DNA from: Budvicia diplopodorum
Lineage (GTDB): Bacteria; Pseudomonadota; Gammaproteobacteria; Enterobacterales; Enterobacteriaceae
DNA: 64,000 nt
Direction: 5' to 3'
Assembly: GCF_009800925.1 (NCBI RefSeq)
Contig: NZ_WOYF01000001.1
Location: forward strand, 248,001 to 312,000
Part shown: positions 36,013 through 45,638 of the stretch, piece after piece
Numbering within the stretch: position 1 is the stretch's first letter
How the letters are laid out: every line of letters begins with the position of its first letter
Position numbers and translations under genes: made by a program
The notes under the pieces: generated by a model
The model's input: only the letters and a program-made list of their open reading frames with translations
What the model was told of the DNA's origin: nothing
Database searches by the model: none

Positions 36013-36567
36013 TTAGCGTTTTGGCCGTAGCGTAATATGCCCGTGGTAACAGGCCAGTTTACATTTTCCACAGCCGTTACAGCGTGATTCATTGAGTACG
36101 ACCTGATTGGCTTCATCGAAATTAATCGCACCCTGAGGGCACGTAATAGCGCACTGTCGGCAGTAATTATTCATTCGCCCCAAACAGCTAAAGCTAAGGG
36201 TCGGCCGTAGCCCGGTATTTGGCTCGATCCCGCGTTCCAGCGCCCCTTTAGTACAAACGTCCGTGCACTTATGGCAAAAATCACAGTCGGCATATTCAAT
36301 ATTGATTGCCGCTTTGTCGTCTTTAAGCTGAATAAGCCCATAAGGGCAGGCAGAAACACAATCGTTGCATCCGTCGCACAGCCGAACAAATAGAACCTCT
36401 TCGACAGCCTGAGGGGGCCGACCTTCAGCCCGTAGAACATCCTGTTGTTCAACGCTAACCTGAGCCTGATGCCCGGCATTAAATAAGCCGCGAAACAGGC
36501 CCCGACGACTCACCGTACGGTGAGTCATCCAGGCTTTATAGTATTGTGCGTCGCGATCGCCTGCCAT
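36013..36567 (-). CDS. napF: NapF-like ferredoxin-type protein
   Basis: An iron-sulfur protein with 184 residues and the NapF arrangement. Cysteine motifs CDGCNDCVSACP (about residues 64-75), CDFCHKCTDVC (about 95-105), CRQCAITCP (about 135-143) and CNGCGKCKLAC (about 163-173) could bind up to four 4Fe-4S clusters. E. coli NapF is 164 residues and matures periplasmic nitrate reductase. The N-terminus (TVSRRGLFRGLF) has an RR motif like other NapF proteins. It is not next to nap genes here: it is the last gene of the dms locus, overlapping dmsD by 1 bp, so it may serve DMSO/selenate reductase maturation or electron transfer. Confidence 0.85.
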   Translation of the reverse strand: MAGDRDAQYYKAWMTHRTVSRRGLFRGLFNAGHQAQVSVEQQDVLRAEGRPPQAVEEVLFVRLCDGCNDCVSACPYGLIQLKDDKAAINIEYADCDFCHKCTDVCTKGALERGIEPNTGLRPTLSFSCLGRMNNYCRQCAITCPQGAINFDEANQVVLNESRCNGCGKCKLACYHGHITLRPKR

Positions 36568-37214
36568 CAGAAAAACAGCTGTTTGCGAATCACTATCGGA
36601 CTATAGCGCTGCTGCCAGTCATCCAGCGCGATTCTGGTCAATAGAGCCATACCCTGATAAAACGGATGCTCGGCTTTCTCTTCCAGAAGCGCCAGAAAAC
36701 GACCGCTCCACGGCAATAAATGCTCCGCCAACAGTGGCGTAATATGCTCAGGTCGAGACTCCGCCAGCCACGCGGCCAGCATTAACAATAAACCGATATG
36801 GTCTTCAGGTTCACGCTGTTGCTGCTGAACTTCAATGCCCAATTCGGCCTGCCAGTTGCGCAATGCTAGGGTCGAATCACCGAAAATAACGCTTTCATGA
36901 TCCAGATATACCGAGCCCCAAGGCGGTGCGGGTAAGGCGTCCGGGCCAATAAACAAACGCTGGTAAGCTTCGGCTAAAGTCTCAGCATTATCGGAGGTTA
37001 ACCCAGAAGATATGAGCGCCGCAGCCCGTTGAATATCAATATCCTCACCGCACGGCCACTCGCCCGACCACTCATCATGCTGAAGTAAATCGAGAATCGG
37101 TGCCAGATCGTCGCTATCCGGAGAATAATACAGAACGGCCCCTAACATACGGCCAGTCAGCGATACGGCTTGCGCATCTGGCAGTTGCTGCTCTGGCATA
37201 ATAGATGAATTCAT
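36567..37214 (-). CDS. dmsD: Tat proofreading chaperone DmsD
   Basis: Cytoplasmic redox enzyme maturation protein of the TorD/DmsD/NarJ family. It binds the twin-arginine leader of DmsA or YnfE and holds it until cofactor insertion is complete. I start it at MNSSIMPEQQLPDAQAVS because AAAGG lies 6 bp upstream. The in-frame codon 20 positions earlier is less well placed. This gives 215 residues, close to 204 in E. coli. The conserved helix motifs YQRLFIGPDALPAPPWGSVYLDHE and EPEDHIGLLLMLAAWL are intact. It sits downstream of the second dmsC, the order seen in the E. coli ynfEFGH-dmsD operon. Confidence 0.93.
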   Translation of the reverse strand: MNSSIMPEQQLPDAQAVSLTGRMLGAVLYYSPDSDDLAPILDLLQHDEWSGEWPCGEDIDIQRAAALISSGLTSDNAETLAEAYQRLFIGPDALPAPPWGSVYLDHESVIFGDSTLALRNWQAELGIEVQQQQREPEDHIGLLLMLAAWLAESRPEHITPLLAEHLLPWSGRFLALLEEKAEHPFYQGMALLTRIALDDWQQRYSPIVIRKQLFF

Positions 37215-37286: not shown

Positions 37287-38141
37287 TTATCCACCAAAAG
37301 TCATGCCCACGGTCATATGTAAATTGTAAAACACCGCCCGGCCGATAAGTTCACCGCACACCACTAGCACAAAGCCGACCAGCAGGCTGAATGTGGTAAC
37401 GCCTTTAACGCGGATCAGCGGACAAATCCAGAAGCCGAGGCCCACCGCTACCAGCGCTAAGCGCAACGCCATCATTTGGCCATACTGCGGCACTAAGGCG
37501 GTCGCCGACATCACCGAGCTTTGTAGCTGAACCAGTTCGCTCCCCTGCATCAGACCGGATACCGCACTGATTAGCAGCGCGATAACGCTGATGGCCGCCA
37601 GTCCTTTACCGCCGCAGGCGCAGGCTTTACTTTTCAGCATATAGCCCAGCAGCGGCCCGCCAATCAGCATGGTCAGGAAGAAGTTCAGCGTGGTATAGCC
37701 GCTATGCCAGGTCGGCACCGTCTCCATTTGGTAAACCCGGCACATGCCGTACACAAAGGCCAGGCCCGATATCATACCGATGACCAACCACAGTTTGCCC
37801 AGCCCTGCTGGCATCTTGCCCATCATGGCTATCAGCCAGTAAATGCCGCCGATAGCAAAGAAGGCTGAGCCCAGCGCTATCTCATTGCTCAGGCCGGATT
37901 GCCCCACCCGATTCAGTGAGTTAAACGCCCGCATCGGTGAACCAAGGTGCATCATTGAGGCGATAAAGGCGATGCCCATCAGGACCCAGATAAAGAACAT
38001 GCCGTTGTGAATAGACTTTCGCTGAGCGTTATCCGTTTTAGGACATAACAGCGCCAAAGCCAGTACGATAAATCCGCCTACCGCGCACTGCCCCAGGACC
38101 GTGAATAACATCAACGGCCATTCATGCCATCCCATTCCCAT
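37287..38141 (-). CDS. dmsC: DMSO/selenate reductase membrane anchor subunit DmsC, copy 1
   Basis: Integral membrane subunit that oxidises menaquinol and passes electrons to DmsB. It has 284 residues with eight hydrophobic helices, as in E. coli DmsC (287). The true start is MGMGWHEWPLMLF, preceded by a strong AAGGAGG. The longer frame upstream reads through dmsB and is a shadow. The dmsB stop and this start are 1 bp apart, so translation is coupled. It differs from copy 2 at the protein level by only two residues that I see: Val for Ala in CPLIRVKG and Phe for Tyr in the C-terminal MTFGG. Confidence 0.93.
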   Translation of the reverse strand: MGMGWHEWPLMLFTVLGQCAVGGFIVLALALLCPKTDNAQRKSIHNGMFFIWVLMGIAFIASMMHLGSPMRAFNSLNRVGQSGLSNEIALGSAFFAIGGIYWLIAMMGKMPAGLGKLWLVIGMISGLAFVYGMCRVYQMETVPTWHSGYTTLNFFLTMLIGGPLLGYMLKSKACACGGKGLAAISVIALLISAVSGLMQGSELVQLQSSVMSATALVPQYGQMMALRLALVAVGLGFWICPLIRVKGVTTFSLLVGFVLVVCGELIGRAVFYNLHMTVGMTFGG

Positions 38142-38857
38142 CTTAAACCTCCTTCGGATTGGATAAATGACCGGTGGTATCCCCGACCGGGCGACTACAG
38201 GCGTTCGGCTTGAGCACGATATTCGGCCGGGTGTACTTCGCCGCCGGTAACGGTGCCACTTCGGCCAGCGTACCGTGTTTGGCCCGCAGTTCGTCAATCG
38301 GGCCGAAGTCTAGCGCGCGCAGCGGACAAGACTCAACGCAGATAGGCTTTTTGCCTTCGTTAAGCACCCGCTCATGGCAACCGTCGCACTTGGTCATATG
38401 CCCCTTCGCCGCATTGTACTGCGGTGCCCCGTACGGGCAGGCCATATGGCAGTAACGACAGCCAATGCACACCTCTTCATTCACCAGTACAAAACCGTCT
38501 TCGCGCTTATGCATGGCACCGCTCGGGCAGACCTTAACGCAGGCCGGGTCATCGCAGTGGTTACAGGCAATCGATAAATAGTAGGCAAACACGTTTTGCT
38601 GCCAGGCATCGCCGTCTTTCATCCATTCGCCGCCGGCGTATTCGTAAATACGACGGAAGCTGACGTCCGGGGTTAAATCTTTATAGTCTTTACACGCTAG
38701 CTCGCAGGTTTTGCAGCCCGTGCAACGACTCGAATCAATATAAAAACCGTATTGCGTTGTCATTGGCCGCTCCTTAAACTTTTGCCACTTCAACCAGATT
38801 GGTATGCTGAGGATTGCCTTTCGCCAGCGGCGAAGGCCGCAGCGTAGTCAGCACATT
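37298..38857 (-). repeat. 1,560-bp near-identical direct repeat, copy 1 (dmsA 3' end, dmsB, dmsC)
   Basis: This block recurs at 41416-42975 with a constant offset of 4,118 bp. It covers the last 84 bp of dmsA, all of dmsB and all but the last few codons of dmsC. I see only two substitutions, both in dmsC (near 37373 and 37408). The edges are sharp: sequence diverges right after 38857 and before 37298. Confidence 0.95.
38143..38763 (-). CDS. dmsB: DMSO/selenate reductase iron-sulfur subunit DmsB, copy 1
   Basis: Electron-transfer subunit with four ferredoxin-type 4Fe-4S clusters. Cysteine groups include CTGCKTCELAC, CNHCDDPACVKVCP, CIGCRYCHMACP, CDGCHERVLNEGKKPICVESCP. The start is MTTQYGFYIDSSRC, giving 206 residues (205 in E. 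coli). The ten-codon extension upstream overlaps dmsA and is not used by the family. The protein sequence is identical to that of copy 2 along its full length. It lies 10 bp downstream of dmsA and is coupled to dmsC. Confidence 0.96.
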   Translation of the reverse strand: MTTQYGFYIDSSRCTGCKTCELACKDYKDLTPDVSFRRIYEYAGGEWMKDGDAWQQNVFAYYLSIACNHCDDPACVKVCPSGAMHKREDGFVLVNEEVCIGCRYCHMACPYGAPQYNAAKGHMTKCDGCHERVLNEGKKPICVESCPLRALDFGPIDELRAKHGTLAEVAPLPAAKYTRPNIVLKPNACSRPVGDTTGHLSNPKEV

Positions 38858-41212
38858 GATGCTGCCTGCCCGGTCAATACCGTTAGCATCCGGCGTGTAC
38901 CACGCACCTTCGCCCAGCGCAACAACGCCCGGAATCATCCTCGGCGTCACTTTGGCACTGATCTGAGTCTCACCCCGGTCATTGAAAATACGAATCATAT
39001 CGCCGTTCTTAATTCCGCGTTCTGCGGCATCAATCGGGTTAATCCACATTTCCTGCAGCGCCGCGGCTTTAATCACGTCTACGTTGCCATAGGTTGAGTG
39101 GCAGCGTGCTTTATAGTGAAATCCTATTAGCTGTAGCGGATATTTCTTACGCAGTGGGTCGTCAAAACCTTCAAAGGTAGAAACGTGAATTGGCAGAGGA
39201 GAAATAGCATCGCCTTTCGGTAGCTCCCAAGTCTTAGCGATAGTAGCCAGACGCTCGGAATAAATTTCAATCTTGCCTGATGGTGTCGCCATCGGGTTGG
39301 CAACCGGGTCGTCACGAAAAGCCTTATGGGCAATAAAATGGCCTGCCGGGTCTTTACGTTTAATAATCCCTACTTTGCGAAATTCTTCAAACGTCGGTAA
39401 CAGCGGATCTTTTTCACAGGACTGCTGATACAGGTGACGTAACCACTCTTCCTGAGTGCGGTTTTCAGTGAATTTTTGCTCAACGCCCATGCGCTTAGCA
39501 ATTTCACTGGTCATCTCGTAAATGGATTTACACTCAAACTGAGGCTTAATCGCTCGATCGGCAAAAATCACATAACCCATGTTGCCCGAGGAGGCATCAA
39601 GGCAGAAATCCATCTGCTCCGAGGTAGTCAGATCCGGTAAAATAATGTCGGCACAGCGTGCACTGGCGGTCATATGGTTATCGATCACCACGATCATTTC
39701 ACACTTGGTATCATCTTCCAGAATCTTGATGGTGCTGTTGATATCAGAGTGCTGATTCACCATGCTGTTACCGGCGTAGTTCCAGATAAACTTAATCGGT
39801 TGCTTGAGCTTATCGGTACCGCGAACGCCGTCTCGAGTAGCGGTCATTTCCGGGCCGCGTACAATTGCGTCGGTCCAAAGGAAGAACGAAATGCTGTCTT
39901 TGATCGGATTATCTAAGGTAGGAAAACGTACAAACGGAATAGCATATGAACCTTCACGGGCACCGGTATTACCGCCGCTGATACCCACGTTGCCGGTTAA
40001 ACAGGCCAGCGCTGCAATGGCACGGGCAACCATTTCACCATTGGCCTGACGCTGAGGCCCCCAGCCCTGACAAATATAGGCCGGTTTAGCAGAACCGATT
40101 TCGCGCGCCAGCTTAATAATACGATCGGTAGGAATCGCCGTAATCTTCGAAGCCCATTCAGGGGTTTTCGCAATACCGTCATCACCTTGGCCCAGTATAT
40201 AAGCCTTATAGTGGCCGTTACGGGGCGCACTGTCTGGCAAGGTTTTCTCATCATAGCCAACGCAGTATTTGTCTAAGAACGGTTGATCGACTAAGTTTTC
40301 CGTAATAAGTACGTGTGCGATACCGGCAACCAAGGCAGCATCGGTACCCGGCGTGATTGGCAACCATTCATCTTCGCGACCGGCAGCGGTATCACAATAG
40401 CGCGGGTCAATAACCACCATTTTGGTATTCGATATTTCGCGGGCCTGTTCGAGAATATAGGTAATGCCACCGCCGCCCATGCGCGTTTCAGCCGGGTTAT
40501 TACCAAACATCACTACCAGCTTGCTATTTTCTATATCAGACGTGCTATTACCGGCAGAGCTGCCATAGGTATAGCCTAATCCGGTGGCAATTTGAGCGGT
40601 ACTGTAAGTGTTGTAATGATTTAAATAGCCACCACAGCAATTCATTAATCGAGCAATCAGGGAATTTCCCGGTGGCCACGAGCGTGTTACTGTTCCACCC
40701 AGCGTTCCGGTAGCGTACTGCACGTAAACCGCCTCATTGCCGTAATCTTTGATAATTCTTTTGAGATTATTGGCAATGTCATCATAGGCTTCTTCCCAGC
40801 TTATCTTCTTGAATTTACCCTCTCCGCGTTTACCGACTCGCTTCATCGGGTATTTTAGGCGGTCAGGGTTATAAATCCGCCGCCGCATTGAACGGCCGCG
40901 CAAACACGCTCGGACCTGAGGTAGAGCCTGATAAACATCGTCACCGGTGTTATCCGTTTCCACATATTTAATTTCACCGTTCACGACGTGCATACGCAAC
41001 GGGCAGCGACTGCCACAGTTTACCGTACAGGCACTCCAGACTGTCTTAACGGCGTCATCCCCCGACGCGGCAACACTTTGTGCATTTGCACGACCAAAGG
41101 GTAGCGAGACACCACCGGCGGCAACGGCAAGACCGCCTATTGCGCTGGTTTGCACAAAAGCACGGCGGCTCAGTGACATCGTTCCAAGAGGTTTAGGATC
41201 ATCAAAGCTCAT
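38774..41212 (-). CDS. dmsA: DMSO reductase catalytic subunit DmsA (molybdopterin)
   Basis: Periplasmic-facing bis-molybdopterin-guanine-dinucleotide enzyme that reduces DMSO, TMAO and related oxides in anaerobic respiration. It has 812 residues (814 in E. coli) and is very similar throughout. A Tat leader (MSLSRRAFVQTSAIGG, RR at residues 15-16) directs export. The 4Fe-4S motif follows in TVNCGSRCPLRMHV, and the serine molybdenum ligand is expected in GTVTRSWPPGNS. The tryptophan after that serine matches E. coli DmsA, and the downstream gene differs here. It is the first gene of the second unit. A terminator-like hairpin separates it from the upstream dmsC copy, and 192 bp of promoter region precede it. 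Confidence 0.95.
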   Translation of the reverse strand: MSFDDPKPLGTMSLSRRAFVQTSAIGGLAVAAGGVSLPFGRANAQSVAASGDDAVKTVWSACTVNCGSRCPLRMHVVNGEIKYVETDNTGDDVYQALPQVRACLRGRSMRRRIYNPDRLKYPMKRVGKRGEGKFKKISWEEAYDDIANNLKRIIKDYGNEAVYVQYATGTLGGTVTRSWPPGNSLIARLMNCCGGYLNHYNTYSTAQIATGLGYTYGSSAGNSTSDIENSKLVVMFGNNPAETRMGGGGITYILEQAREISNTKMVVIDPRYCDTAAGREDEWLPITPGTDAALVAGIAHVLITENLVDQPFLDKYCVGYDEKTLPDSAPRNGHYKAYILGQGDDGIAKTPEWASKITAIPTDRIIKLAREIGSAKPAYICQGWGPQRQANGEMVARAIAALACLTGNVGISGGNTGAREGSYAIPFVRFPTLDNPIKDSISFFLWTDAIVRGPEMTATRDGVRGTDKLKQPIKFIWNYAGNSMVNQHSDINSTIKILEDDTKCEMIVVIDNHMTASARCADIILPDLTTSEQMDFCLDASSGNMGYVIFADRAIKPQFECKSIYEMTSEIAKRMGVEQKFTENRTQEEWLRHLYQQSCEKDPLLPTFEEFRKVGIIKRKDPAGHFIAHKAFRDDPVANPMATPSGKIEIYSERLATIAKTWELPKGDAISPLPIHVSTFEGFDDPLRKKYPLQLIGFHYKARCHSTYGNVDVIKAAALQEMWINPIDAAERGIKNGDMIRIFNDRGETQISAKVTPRMIPGVVALGEGAWYTPDANGIDRAGSINVLTTLRPSPLAKGNPQHTNLVEVAKV

Positions 41213-41273
41213 AAATCACCTGTTATCTTATTATTGTTAAACTATCGATACTCTATGTAGCCGGAGTACCAAG

Positions 41274-41283
41274 GGGTATACCC
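41274..41283. promoter_or_regulatory. Palindrome in the dmsA promoter region
   Basis: GGGTATACCC is a perfect 10-bp palindrome 62 bp upstream of the dmsA start. I cannot assign a regulator. FNR, NarL and ModE are the known controllers of E. coli dmsABC, and none fits this sequence well. Confidence 0.3.
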
Positions 41284-41354
41284 GAATCATTCAGGTTAAA
41301 ATGAAGTCGAAAAAATAAGGCATCGGTCATTAATCAGAAAATATACTGCTGAGA

Positions 41355-41394
41355 ACAAATAAAGCGCAAAGTAACGAATATATTACCCTGCGCT
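41355..41394 (-). terminator. Candidate terminator between the two dms units
   Basis: AGCGCA (41363-41368) pairs with 41389-41394, with an inner GTAA/TTAC stem. A T-rich stretch follows leftward. It lies 11 bp past the dmsC copy 2 stop codon, so the upstream ynfE-dmsBC unit probably ends here and dmsA has its own promoter. Confidence 0.6.
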
Positions 41395-41404
41395 ATATAG
41401 CGAT

Positions 41405-42259
41405 TTACCCGCCGTAAGTCATGCCCACGGTCATATGTAAATTGTAAAACACCGCCCGGCCGATAAGTTCACCGCACACCACTAGCACAAAACCGACCAG
41501 CAGGCTGAATGTGGTAACGCCTTTAGCGCGGATCAGCGGACAAATCCAGAAGCCGAGGCCCACCGCTACCAGCGCTAAGCGCAACGCCATCATTTGGCCA
41601 TACTGCGGCACTAAGGCGGTCGCCGACATCACCGAGCTTTGTAGCTGAACCAGTTCGCTCCCCTGCATCAGACCGGATACCGCACTGATTAGCAGCGCGA
41701 TAACGCTGATGGCCGCCAGTCCTTTACCGCCGCAGGCGCAGGCTTTACTTTTCAGCATATAGCCCAGCAGCGGCCCGCCAATCAGCATGGTCAGGAAGAA
41801 GTTCAGCGTGGTATAGCCGCTATGCCAGGTCGGCACCGTCTCCATTTGGTAAACCCGGCACATGCCGTACACAAAGGCCAGGCCCGATATCATACCGATG
41901 ACCAACCACAGTTTGCCCAGCCCTGCTGGCATCTTGCCCATCATGGCTATCAGCCAGTAAATGCCGCCGATAGCAAAGAAGGCTGAGCCCAGCGCTATCT
42001 CATTGCTCAGGCCGGATTGCCCCACCCGATTCAGTGAGTTAAACGCCCGCATCGGTGAACCAAGGTGCATCATTGAGGCGATAAAGGCGATGCCCATCAG
42101 GACCCAGATAAAGAACATGCCGTTGTGAATAGACTTTCGCTGAGCGTTATCCGTTTTAGGACATAACAGCGCCAAAGCCAGTACGATAAATCCGCCTACC
42201 GCGCACTGCCCCAGGACCGTGAATAACATCAACGGCCATTCATGCCATCCCATTCCCAT
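41405..42259 (-). CDS. dmsC: DMSO/selenate reductase membrane anchor subunit DmsC, copy 2
   Basis: Second copy of the quinol-oxidising membrane anchor (YnfH/DmsC type), 284 residues with the same eight helices. The start MGMGWHEWPLMLF and the strong AAGGAGG site are identical to those of copy 1. The protein differs from copy 1 only at CPLIRAKG and the C-terminal MTYGG. It is coupled to the preceding dmsB (1-bp gap) and completes a ynfE-like catalytic unit. In E. coli ynfH serves YnfE/YnfF in the same way. Confidence 0.93.
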   Translation of the reverse strand: MGMGWHEWPLMLFTVLGQCAVGGFIVLALALLCPKTDNAQRKSIHNGMFFIWVLMGIAFIASMMHLGSPMRAFNSLNRVGQSGLSNEIALGSAFFAIGGIYWLIAMMGKMPAGLGKLWLVIGMISGLAFVYGMCRVYQMETVPTWHSGYTTLNFFLTMLIGGPLLGYMLKSKACACGGKGLAAISVIALLISAVSGLMQGSELVQLQSSVMSATALVPQYGQMMALRLALVAVGLGFWICPLIRAKGVTTFSLLVGFVLVVCGELIGRAVFYNLHMTVGMTYGG

Positions 42260-42975
42260 CTTAAACCTCCTTCGGATTGGATAAATGACCGGTGGTATCC
42301 CCGACCGGGCGACTACAGGCGTTCGGCTTGAGCACGATATTCGGCCGGGTGTACTTCGCCGCCGGTAACGGTGCCACTTCGGCCAGCGTACCGTGTTTGG
42401 CCCGCAGTTCGTCAATCGGGCCGAAGTCTAGCGCGCGCAGCGGACAAGACTCAACGCAGATAGGCTTTTTGCCTTCGTTAAGCACCCGCTCATGGCAACC
42501 GTCGCACTTGGTCATATGCCCCTTCGCCGCATTGTACTGCGGTGCCCCGTACGGGCAGGCCATATGGCAGTAACGACAGCCAATGCACACCTCTTCATTC
42601 ACCAGTACAAAACCGTCTTCGCGCTTATGCATGGCACCGCTCGGGCAGACCTTAACGCAGGCCGGGTCATCGCAGTGGTTACAGGCAATCGATAAATAGT
42701 AGGCAAACACGTTTTGCTGCCAGGCATCGCCGTCTTTCATCCATTCGCCGCCGGCGTATTCGTAAATACGACGGAAGCTGACGTCCGGGGTTAAATCTTT
42801 ATAGTCTTTACACGCTAGCTCGCAGGTTTTGCAGCCCGTGCAACGACTCGAATCAATATAAAAACCGTATTGCGTTGTCATTGGCCGCTCCTTAAACTTT
42901 TGCCACTTCAACCAGATTGGTATGCTGAGGATTGCCTTTCGCCAGCGGCGAAGGCCGCAGCGTAGTCAGCACATT
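41416..42975 (-). repeat. 1,560-bp near-identical direct repeat, copy 2
   Basis: Matches 37298-38857 with an offset of 4,118 bp. It covers the 3' 84 bp of the ynfE-like gene, dmsB and most of dmsC. Identity is essentially complete (two substitutions noticed). The adjacent catalytic genes are only moderately similar, so the homogeneous block ends abruptly. Confidence 0.95.
42261..42881 (-). CDS. dmsB: DMSO/selenate reductase iron-sulfur subunit DmsB, copy 2
   Basis: Four-cluster ferredoxin subunit (YnfG/DmsB type) of the ynfE-like reductase. Its 206-residue sequence is identical to the other copy at 38143-38763, including all cysteine groups. Start, ribosome-binding region and 10-bp spacing from the catalytic gene are also identical. 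Because the subunits match exactly, either DmsB can presumably serve either catalytic subunit. Confidence 0.96.
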   Translation of the reverse strand: MTTQYGFYIDSSRCTGCKTCELACKDYKDLTPDVSFRRIYEYAGGEWMKDGDAWQQNVFAYYLSIACNHCDDPACVKVCPSGAMHKREDGFVLVNEEVCIGCRYCHMACPYGAPQYNAAKGHMTKCDGCHERVLNEGKKPICVESCPLRALDFGPIDELRAKHGTLAEVAPLPAAKYTRPNIVLKPNACSRPVGDTTGHLSNPKEV

Positions 42976-45345
42976 CACACAGCCACCGTGATCGATTTTA
43001 TCGCCATTCATATTGGCCCGATGCCACGCACCTTGCCCCATTCCCGTTACTCCGGGCATCATTCTCGGCGTCACTTTAGCGGGCAGGCGAAGCTCTCCGC
43101 GAACGTTGAATACTCTGACTAAATCGCCACTTTTAATTCCGCGTTCTTGGGCATCAATCGGGTTGATCCAGACTTCCTGACGACAGGCAGCATCCAGCAC
43201 GTCAATATTTCCATAGCTTGAGTGGGTACGGGATTTATAGTGGAAGCCAACCATTTGTAACGGGAATTTCTCCCTGATAGGGTCATCCCAGCCTTCAAAG
43301 GTCGATGCATAAACAGGTAACGGACTAATAACGTCACCCTTTTGCAGCGTCCAGCTGGCCACAATATCCGCCAACTGTTGAGAGTAGATCTCAATTTTTC
43401 CTGAAGGGGTTTTTAGTGGGTTCGCGTCAGGATCTTGGCGGAACTTTTTGTAGGCAACAAAATGTCCGCTCGGATCTTTACGCTTGTAGATGCCCATCGC
43501 CTTCATATCTTCATAGTCCGGCATTTGCGGATCTTTCTGTTTCATCTTCGCGTAGAGATACTGTAGCCATTCGGCCTGCGACCTGCCCTCGGTGAACTTT
43601 TGTGCCACATCAGGGCCTAGGCGCGTTGCGATTTCGGTGAGAATGTCGTAGATAGGTTTACGTTCAAACTTCGGCGAGGTTGCCGGTTGACTAAAGATCA
43701 GATAGCCCATGTTGCCGGCATAATCATTACAAACGAAATCTTCTTGTTCGGTGGTCATCAGGTCAGGCAGCAGATAATCGGCGTATTTAGCCGACGACGT
43801 CATGAAGTTTTCAATTACCACAATGCATTCGCACTGCTTTTCATCCTGAAGAATTTCATGGGTTCGGTTAATATCCGAATGCTGATTGATAATGGTATTA
43901 CCGGCATAGTTCCACATAAACTTGATCGGCACCGTTAGCCGTTCTTTGCCGCGCACGCCGTCGGTTTTATCGGTCATCTCTGTGGGCCGATAAATAGCGT
44001 CCGTCCAGGTAAATACCGATATGCTGGTTTTTACCGGATTATCCAGCACCGGTACCCGTTCCATCGTCATGTAATAGGTCGATTCACGCGCACCGCTGTT
44101 ACCGCCATTAATACCAACGTTGCCGGTTAAAATTGGCAGCATAGCAATCGCTCGGGAGGTCAATTCGCCGTTAGCCTGGCGCTGCGGCCCCCAGCCTTGA
44201 CAAATATAGGCTGGCTTAGTTAGCCCGATATCACGCGCTAGCTTAATAATCCGGTCTACGGGAATGGTGGTAATAGACGAAGCCCATTGCGGCGTTTTGG
44301 CTATGCCATCATCGCCCTGGCCTAAAATATACGCTTTATAGTGACCGTTACGCGGAGCACCTTCCGGTAAGGTTGTTTCATCATAGCCAACGCAGTATTT
44401 GTCTAAGAACGGTTGGTCGACCAGATTTTCAGTTATCAATACGTAGGCAATACCGGCAACGAGTGCGGCATCGGTACCCGGTCGTATCGGTAGCCATTCA
44501 TCCTCTCGACCAGCGGCCGTATCCGTATAGCGAGGATCGATAACCACCATTCTCGCATTCGAACGTTCCCTTGCCTGTTCAAGGAGATAGGTAATACCGC
44601 CGCCGCTCATGCGCGTTTCGGCCGGATTATTACCAAACATCACCACCAGCTTACTGTTTTCAATATCTGACGTGCTATTGCCGTCATTACTGCCGTAAGT
44701 GTATGGCATAGCGCAGCTAATTTGCGCCGTGCTGTAGCTTCCATAGTGGCTTAAATATCCGCCATAGCAGTTCATTAATCGGCCAATCATCGAAGCATAA
44801 GGGGAAGAGCGAGTAATATTTCCACCAATAACGCCGGTGCTATATTGCTGATAAACGGATTCATTTCCGTAATCTTTAACGATTCGTTTCAAATTATCGG
44901 TAATTTCGTTTAATGCCTGCTCCCAGCTAATTCTGACAAACTTACCTTCCCCTCTTTTTCCTACCCGCTTCATAGGATAATTCAGGCGGTCAGGGTGGTT
45001 CATACGACGACGCATTGATCGACCGCGTAAACAGGCCCGAACCTGATGATTACCATAAGCATCATCGCCGGTATTATCCGTTTCGACCCAATAAACCTCA
45101 TCATCACGCACGTGCAAACGCAGAGCACAACGGCTGCCACAGTTTACCGAGCACATACTCCATACCACTTTATCTTTAGCTTTTTCTTTTATCGCTGAAG
45201 ATACCGCTTCTGTCGCCTGACTTTTAGCAAAAGGAAGTGAAACACCTACGGTTGCTAGTACAATACTGCCTAACGCACTGCTTTTTACTAAACTTCGGCG
45301 GCTAATATCCGTTACCAAAAAACTCTTCTCTTCTGGCTCATTCAT
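42892..45345 (-). CDS. ynfE: DMSO/selenate-family reductase catalytic subunit, YnfE/YnfF-like
   Basis: Second molybdopterin catalytic subunit, 817 residues when started at MNEPEEKSFLVTDISRR, which has AGTGAGGA at a proper distance. The in-frame GTG 12 bp earlier overlaps that site. The Tat leader is DISRRSLVKSSALGS. The 4Fe-4S motif is SVNCGSRCALRLHV. The Mo-ligand region reads GNITRSSPYASMIGRLMNCYGG, which follows E. coli YnfE/YnfF (selenate reductases) and not DmsA, whose motif is TRSW. Other stretches (ARESTYYMTMERVPVLDNP, YNPF-type DYEDMKAMGIYKRKDP) agree with YnfE/F. Substrate is therefore likely selenate or a related oxide, but unproven. First gene of the upstream dms unit. Confidence 0.9.
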   Translation of the reverse strand: MNEPEEKSFLVTDISRRSLVKSSALGSIVLATVGVSLPFAKSQATEAVSSAIKEKAKDKVVWSMCSVNCGSRCALRLHVRDDEVYWVETDNTGDDAYGNHQVRACLRGRSMRRRMNHPDRLNYPMKRVGKRGEGKFVRISWEQALNEITDNLKRIVKDYGNESVYQQYSTGVIGGNITRSSPYASMIGRLMNCYGGYLSHYGSYSTAQISCAMPYTYGSNDGNSTSDIENSKLVVMFGNNPAETRMSGGGITYLLEQARERSNARMVVIDPRYTDTAAGREDEWLPIRPGTDAALVAGIAYVLITENLVDQPFLDKYCVGYDETTLPEGAPRNGHYKAYILGQGDDGIAKTPQWASSITTIPVDRIIKLARDIGLTKPAYICQGWGPQRQANGELTSRAIAMLPILTGNVGINGGNSGARESTYYMTMERVPVLDNPVKTSISVFTWTDAIYRPTEMTDKTDGVRGKERLTVPIKFMWNYAGNTIINQHSDINRTHEILQDEKQCECIVVIENFMTSSAKYADYLLPDLMTTEQEDFVCNDYAGNMGYLIFSQPATSPKFERKPIYDILTEIATRLGPDVAQKFTEGRSQAEWLQYLYAKMKQKDPQMPDYEDMKAMGIYKRKDPSGHFVAYKKFRQDPDANPLKTPSGKIEIYSQQLADIVASWTLQKGDVISPLPVYASTFEGWDDPIREKFPLQMVGFHYKSRTHSSYGNIDVLDAACRQEVWINPIDAQERGIKSGDLVRVFNVRGELRLPAKVTPRMMPGVTGMGQGAWHRANMNGDKIDHGGCVNVLTTLRPSPLAKGNPQHTNLVEVAKV

Positions 45346-45606: not shown

Positions 45607-45638
45607 TGATTATCAAATTGATAATGAAAATCATTTTC
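45607..45638. promoter_or_regulatory. Fur box (extended)
   Basis: GATAATGAAAATCATTTTC (45620-45638) matches 17 of 19 bases of the Fur consensus GATAATGATAATCATTATC. An overlapping perfect inverted repeat, ATTATCA-AAT-TGATAAT (45609-45625), adds further Fur hexamers. The nearest start codon leftward is 275 bp away. Rightward the box sits on a TATAAT promoter. Confidence 0.75.

Follow-up and report, generated by a model that had tools for sequence, protein, structure and literature searches.

Why do two adjacent reductase operons, whose catalytic genes differ over most of their length, carry electron-transfer genes that are almost the same base for base? The question is raised by a locus of Budvicia diplopodorum (assembly GCF_009800925.1, contig NZ_WOYF01000001.1), of which we analyzed a stretch of 64,000 nt, positions 248,001 to 312,000 of the forward strand, referred to here as the window. 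All genes of the locus lie on the minus strand and read in the order serS, A1, dmsB1, dmsC1, A2, dmsB2, dmsC2, dmsD, and a napF-like gene, followed by the convergent pflA/pflB side. We consider it likely that these are tandem YnfE- and DmsA-type units in which the dmsBC cassette was homogenized very recently by gene conversion. The features are as follows.

42892..45345, minus strand: A1, YnfE-type catalytic (molybdopterin) subunit gene with a twin-arginine signal and DmsA-type last 28 codons (tree, NCBIfam, C-terminal switch)
42261..42881, minus strand: dmsB copy 1, identical to copy 2 (TIGR02951, block identity)
41405..42259, minus strand: dmsC copy 1, membrane anchor, last three codons unlike copy 2 (homology to the single-copy DmsC of relatives)
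41363..41394, minus strand: terminator-like hairpin past dmsC copy 1, with a 13-pair stem and a T-rich tail (diverged homologue of the dmsC copy 2 flank)
38774..41212, minus strand: A2, resident DmsA catalytic subunit gene (tree, 93% identity to B. aquatica DmsA)
38143..38763, minus strand: dmsB copy 2 (identity to copy 1)
37287..38141, minus strand: dmsC copy 2 (near identity to copy 1)
41416..42975, minus strand: homogenized block, upstream copy, comprising the A1 3' end, dmsB, and dmsC (base-for-base match)
37298..38857, minus strand: homogenized block, downstream copy, comprising the A2 3' end, dmsB, and dmsC (base-for-base match)
36567..37214, minus strand: dmsD, the sole chaperone gene of the locus (NF008632 DmsD, 273.5 bits, cut-off 162)
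36013..36567, minus strand: NapF-like ferredoxin gene (TIGR00402, 117.3 bits, cut-off 102.2)

Comparison of 37298-38857 with 41416-42975 (1560 bp, offset 4118 bp) disclosed differences at positions 37374 and 37408 only, one of them synonymous and the other a Val/Ala exchange in DmsC, while DmsB is identical. The run from 37409 to 38857, 1449 bp, contains no difference at all; chance was rejected as its source, with a log10 P of about -254 at the mismatch rate of the catalytic genes. On the dmsC side the edge of the block is sharp, with 4 differences in the 8 bases 37290-37297, and on the dmsA side matching at the fixed offset is near-random from 38858 on. These data agree exactly with the initial annotation, which had described two near-identical blocks with two substitutions, fully identical DmsB proteins, and sharp edges. 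Its claim that the catalytic genes differ over most of their length also holds, with about 67% identity in a gapped alignment, and its gene names, dmsA and ynfE, fit the downstream and the upstream catalytic gene, respectively.

These assignments were evaluated with trees and family models. A1 groups with E. coli YnfE and with the A1 proteins of Serratia and Buttiauxella (SH-aLRT 96 for the YnfE/F clade), and A2 is sister to the DmsA of B. aquatica (SH-aLRT 100), with which it is 93% identical. The best NCBIfam model of A1 is YnfE (NF041885) at 1661.8 bits, just under the curated cut-off of 1675, and the gene is therefore called YnfE-type, not YnfE. The best model of A2 is DmsA (NF011566) at 1498.8 bits, below the curated cut-off of 1600, so that its assignment as DmsA rests on the tree together with synteny with serS. 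Both exceed the cut-off of 777.7 for the dmsA_ynfE subfamily model TIGR02166 (A1, 1323.1 bits; A2, 1331.6 bits), and both proteins retain the twin-arginine motif and the YSTAQI stretch. The two catalytic genes are old paralogues that are still diverged. DmsB scored 264.7 bits with TIGR02951, above the cut-off of 214.1 (one copy was scored, the second being identical). DmsC matched no model in NCBIfam, the only collection used for it; it occupies the same operon position in the loci of relatives, is 58% identical to E. coli DmsC, and shares 42-87% identity with the gene it retrieved in 39 loci. No Rfam family was matched within the window. In published work YnfE is connected with the reduction of selenate and DmsA with S-oxides (PMC5203670, PMC12096835). 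Judging from these families, the locus would encode two reductases of different substrate range, both supplied with electrons from the quinone pool by DmsBC modules of one kind.

The region between serS and A1 contains a Fur-box-like palindrome (45620-45638) with 2 mismatches to GATAATGATAATCATTATC, where 0.01 such sites are expected in the window. B. aquatica and Pragia also have sites with a 16/19 match to the Fur box ahead of dmsA, a hint that the dms operon may be under iron control. Upstream of A2 (41213-41404), similarity to the sequence that natively precedes dmsA in B. aquatica is limited to the last ~50 bp. The portion of that sequence nearer serS, including the Fur-like site, now precedes A1, which may have taken over the original dmsA promoter region.

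Synonymous divergence separates the block from its surroundings. Between A1 and A2 it is about 2.75 when the last 28 codons are left out and 0.02 within those 28 codons; between the copies it is 0 for dmsB and 0.019 for dmsC. Divergence from B. aquatica is 1.19 for A2, 0.84 for dmsB, and 1.65-1.74 for dmsC, and about half to two thirds of the synonymous sites in both BC copies differ from that species. The paralogues are therefore closer to each other than to their orthologues at synonymous sites, as under concerted evolution, for both dmsB and dmsC. The tree of BC sequences joins the two window copies to each other, with B. aquatica as their sister; both are of the resident Budvicia type and of vertical origin.

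The ends of the block carry further information. The C-terminus of A1 switches from the YnfE type to the Budvicia DmsA type: most YnfE-type proteins have NTLT and an IEK-like end, whereas window A1 has the NVLTT and EVAKV end of Budvicia DmsA. This indicates that the A1 3' end was overwritten by a conversion tract that ran into the gene. On the dmsC side, the copies differ at four bases within the final three codons of the gene, mostly synonymously, giving YGG-stop in copy 1 and FGG-stop in copy 2. The hairpins that follow dmsC1 and dmsC2 are diverged homologues; the alignment score was reached by 1 of 2000 shuffles for dmsC1 against dmsC2 and by 0 of 2000 for dmsC1 against B. aquatica. The tails and terminators of dmsC1 and dmsC2 are about as far apart from each other as from B. 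aquatica. Homologous yet diverged between the copies, they imply that the two-copy state in the window predates the latest homogenization. The proposal that the electron-transfer genes were recently homogenized by recombination is thereby upheld: synonymous divergence is about zero inside the block and near saturation outside, the A1 3' end is chimaeric, and diverged homology continues past the dmsC edge.

On this evidence we propose that two adjacent three-subunit operons of the DMSO/selenate family, A1-dmsB1-dmsC1 followed by A2-dmsB2-dmsC2 and one dmsD, would have arisen by an older duplication, and that a recent conversion then covered about 1.56 kb comprising the dmsA tail, dmsB, and dmsC. 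The resident DmsA-side cassette is the most likely donor, a direction that we infer only, and the recombination machinery was most likely RecA-dependent. Tract limits would lie where homology ends. On one side this is immediately ahead of the catalytic gene's final and most conserved codons; on the other it is the end of dmsC, and conversion would have halted some 11 bp before that end.

A comparable pattern was found in a genome of another genus, G084, a single contig of 4,814,049 bp with seven 16S genes, which we presume may be Enterobacter lignolyticus SCF1. There the order is serS, DmsA, B, C, YnfF-type A, B, C, the reverse of the catalytic order in the window. The A genes are 65% identical. 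The dmsB copies differ at 7 sites, all in the first 342 bases (synonymous divergence 0.054), and the dmsC copies at 3 sites, all in the last 118 bases (0.009), leaving about 1 kb identical in the middle of the block and residual differences towards both edges. Both edges fall where those of the window lie, one at the dmsC stop and the other within the conserved RPSPLAKGNP stretch of the catalytic gene. The congener of G084, G384, carries a single unit, on an unbroken contig. G084 is an independent parallel case that arose separately from that in the window.

In the relatives, the serS-pfl locus holds one A-B-C-dmsD unit with a DmsA-type A; this applies to B. aquatica DSM 5075, Pragia, two Limnobaculum species, G143, and G133, and among those sampled the tandem is thus specific to the window species. 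A search with the G084 block across 391 genomes of the family gave matches in 160, and among the approximately 150 matches listed only G084 had two copies about 4.2 kb apart. A separate family search recovered the tandem in the window and in G084, and a DmsB search of 198 genomes of the order found no tandem besides the window. Across species, five arrangements occur at serS, namely A2-BC, A1-A2-BC, A1-BC-A2-BC, A2-BC-A-BC, and A1-BC, so the earlier suggestion of a variable locus is confirmed at the between-species level. A1-A2-BC with a single BC was seen in Serratia sp. AKBS12 (L046) and in G057 (L090). Two loci of Serratia proteamaculans have a single YnfE-type A with BC and dmsD and no DmsA (L055 by tree, L065 by best match), which is what a deletion through the repeats, or between two A genes, would be expected to leave. 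In Serratia sp. PL17 (L048) and S. quinivorans (L078), the dms locus matches with only a 3' A-gene fragment or with broken dmsB/dmsC matches.

Elsewhere in the window genome, contig C33 holds a second tandem (L085:3906-12002), two dms-like units followed by dmsD-like and napF-like genes. It is old, strongly diverged, and not homogenized, and is present in B. aquatica as well (L086). The pair of BC copies at or close to the ynf operon of genome G010 is 73% identical and likewise not homogenized. Homogenization as a general rule for tandem dms operons was ruled out by these two loci and by two Photobacterium species.

The two independent cases with the same edges favor a broader reading, in which dmsBC would be an exchangeable cassette, repeatedly copied beside YnfE/YnfF-type genes and kept uniform by ongoing GC-biased conversion, with partner compatibility maintained while the catalytic genes specialize. 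We advance this reading tentatively and regard it as rather doubtful. GC-biased gene conversion has been proposed for bacteria (PMC4450053). Among 89 ORFs in 144 kb of the window genome, third-position GC peaks in dmsB and dmsC (0.65-0.69; next 0.565), dmsC being the highest and lying well above the genes around it. G084 dmsC also leads in third-position GC, at about 0.87 against 0.73-0.76 in the single-copy G384, the largest margin of 44 orthologue pairs. Polarized third-position changes in dmsBC, AT-to-GC against GC-to-AT, number 29:7 on the window branch and 12:22 on the B. aquatica branch (Fisher p 0.0002 between branches), compared with 45:19 and 28:19 in A2 (p 0.31); for dmsBC in G084 and G384 they are 8:6 and 4:18 (p 0.03). 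The pattern resembles GC-biased conversion and is only suggestive of it. As a firm conclusion this was rejected: part of the contrast comes from GC loss in B. aquatica, whose single-copy dmsBC is GC-rich too and has the highest third-position GC of its own region.

The alternative that competes best with gene conversion, though we judge it unlikely, is a single recent event, in which a YnfE-type gene, newly arrived or already standing next to dmsA, took part in one recombination that also duplicated the resident dmsBC, the copies being new rather than converted. This would accommodate the resident type of both BC copies, the single unit of the relatives, and the A1-A2-BC arrangement with one BC at the serS locus of other species. 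In G084 the flanks beyond the two dmsC copies are unrelated, so that a one-step duplication with insertion explains that case equally well. In the window, a fresh copy should carry either the same tail or an unrelated junction, whereas dmsC1 has a tail and a terminator that are homologous to, yet diverged from, their counterparts in dmsC2 and in B. aquatica, the tail being in frame and encoding the same protein end.

It is very improbable that the repeat is an assembly artefact, in which the assembler either repeated a single real dmsBC copy or collapsed two diverged ones into the same sequence. The window genome is a 3.6-Mb draft in 45 contigs, and no 16S genes were found there or in the other drafts, which suggests short-read assembly; both interior substitutions lie within about 110 bp of unique flank, as expected if only flank-anchored differences were resolved. 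However, the sequences entering and leaving the block include two different dmsC ends and two different dmsA bodies, so the block must have been traversed twice, and no linear path other than A1-BC-A2-BC-dmsD makes use of both dmsC ends. The closed genome G084 has the same pattern with real residual differences. The two copies in the window are therefore secure, and the identity figures may be slightly inflated by the merging of a few interior differences.

Slightly less credible still is the transfer of a complete YnfE-type unit whose donor, a close relative within Budvicia, had almost the same dmsBC. In its favor, B. aquatica lacks the unit and the dmsC1 tail is Budvicia-like; against it, this tail and its terminator are far more diverged than the adjoining 1.5 kb, and conversion would still be needed afterwards. 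Strong constraint, the refuting alternative named in the initial annotation, is in keeping with a DmsB that is 99% conserved between the two Budvicia species. It has practically no standing and is refuted by the synonymous sites, which are the same in both copies while about half to two thirds of them are changed relative to B. aquatica.

Under gene conversion, the locus depicts a respiratory enzyme that evolves as two modules, a catalytic gene that diverges and is exchanged and electron-transfer genes that recombination keeps identical. Because the same edges recur in two independent cases, the point at which homogenization stops can be tested as an effect of how far homology extends rather than of selection on single genes. 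Gene trees of DmsB or DmsC cannot date these duplications, and a catalytic subunit can end in a C-terminus of different origin from the protein before it.

No account of gene conversion in DMSO reductase operons emerged from a literature search, and a 26-gene survey of concerted evolution names no dms gene in its main text. The mechanism itself is already known: in tufA/tufB, rrn, and amo/hao, gene conversion leaves the paralogues of one genome closer to each other than to the orthologues of other species, often for subunits of one complex (PMC6053082, PMC5485169). The window paralogues, too, are closer than the orthologues; unlike in those systems, two of three subunit genes are homogenized while the third diverges, and the copies are adjacent. 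What is new is a case limited to a cassette and seen twice. In E. coli and Salmonella, ynfEFGH-dmsD and dmsABC comprise the paralogues YnfE, YnfF, and DmsA, a B subunit, a C anchor, and the shared chaperone DmsD (PMC4464133, PMC5203670, PMC12096835). The same families are present in the window, A1 grouping with YnfE and A2 with DmsA. In E. coli, however, a single GH pair serves both ynfE and ynfF, and dmsABC is found at another chromosomal position, whereas in the window A1 and A2 are each followed by a BC pair of their own, in adjacent units, and the pairs are homogenized. The tandem dmsABC-dmsABC of Photobacterium resembles the window in having two complete adjacent units; unlike in the window, its BC copies have diverged as its A copies have (synonymous divergence 0.7-2.7), with no homogenization.
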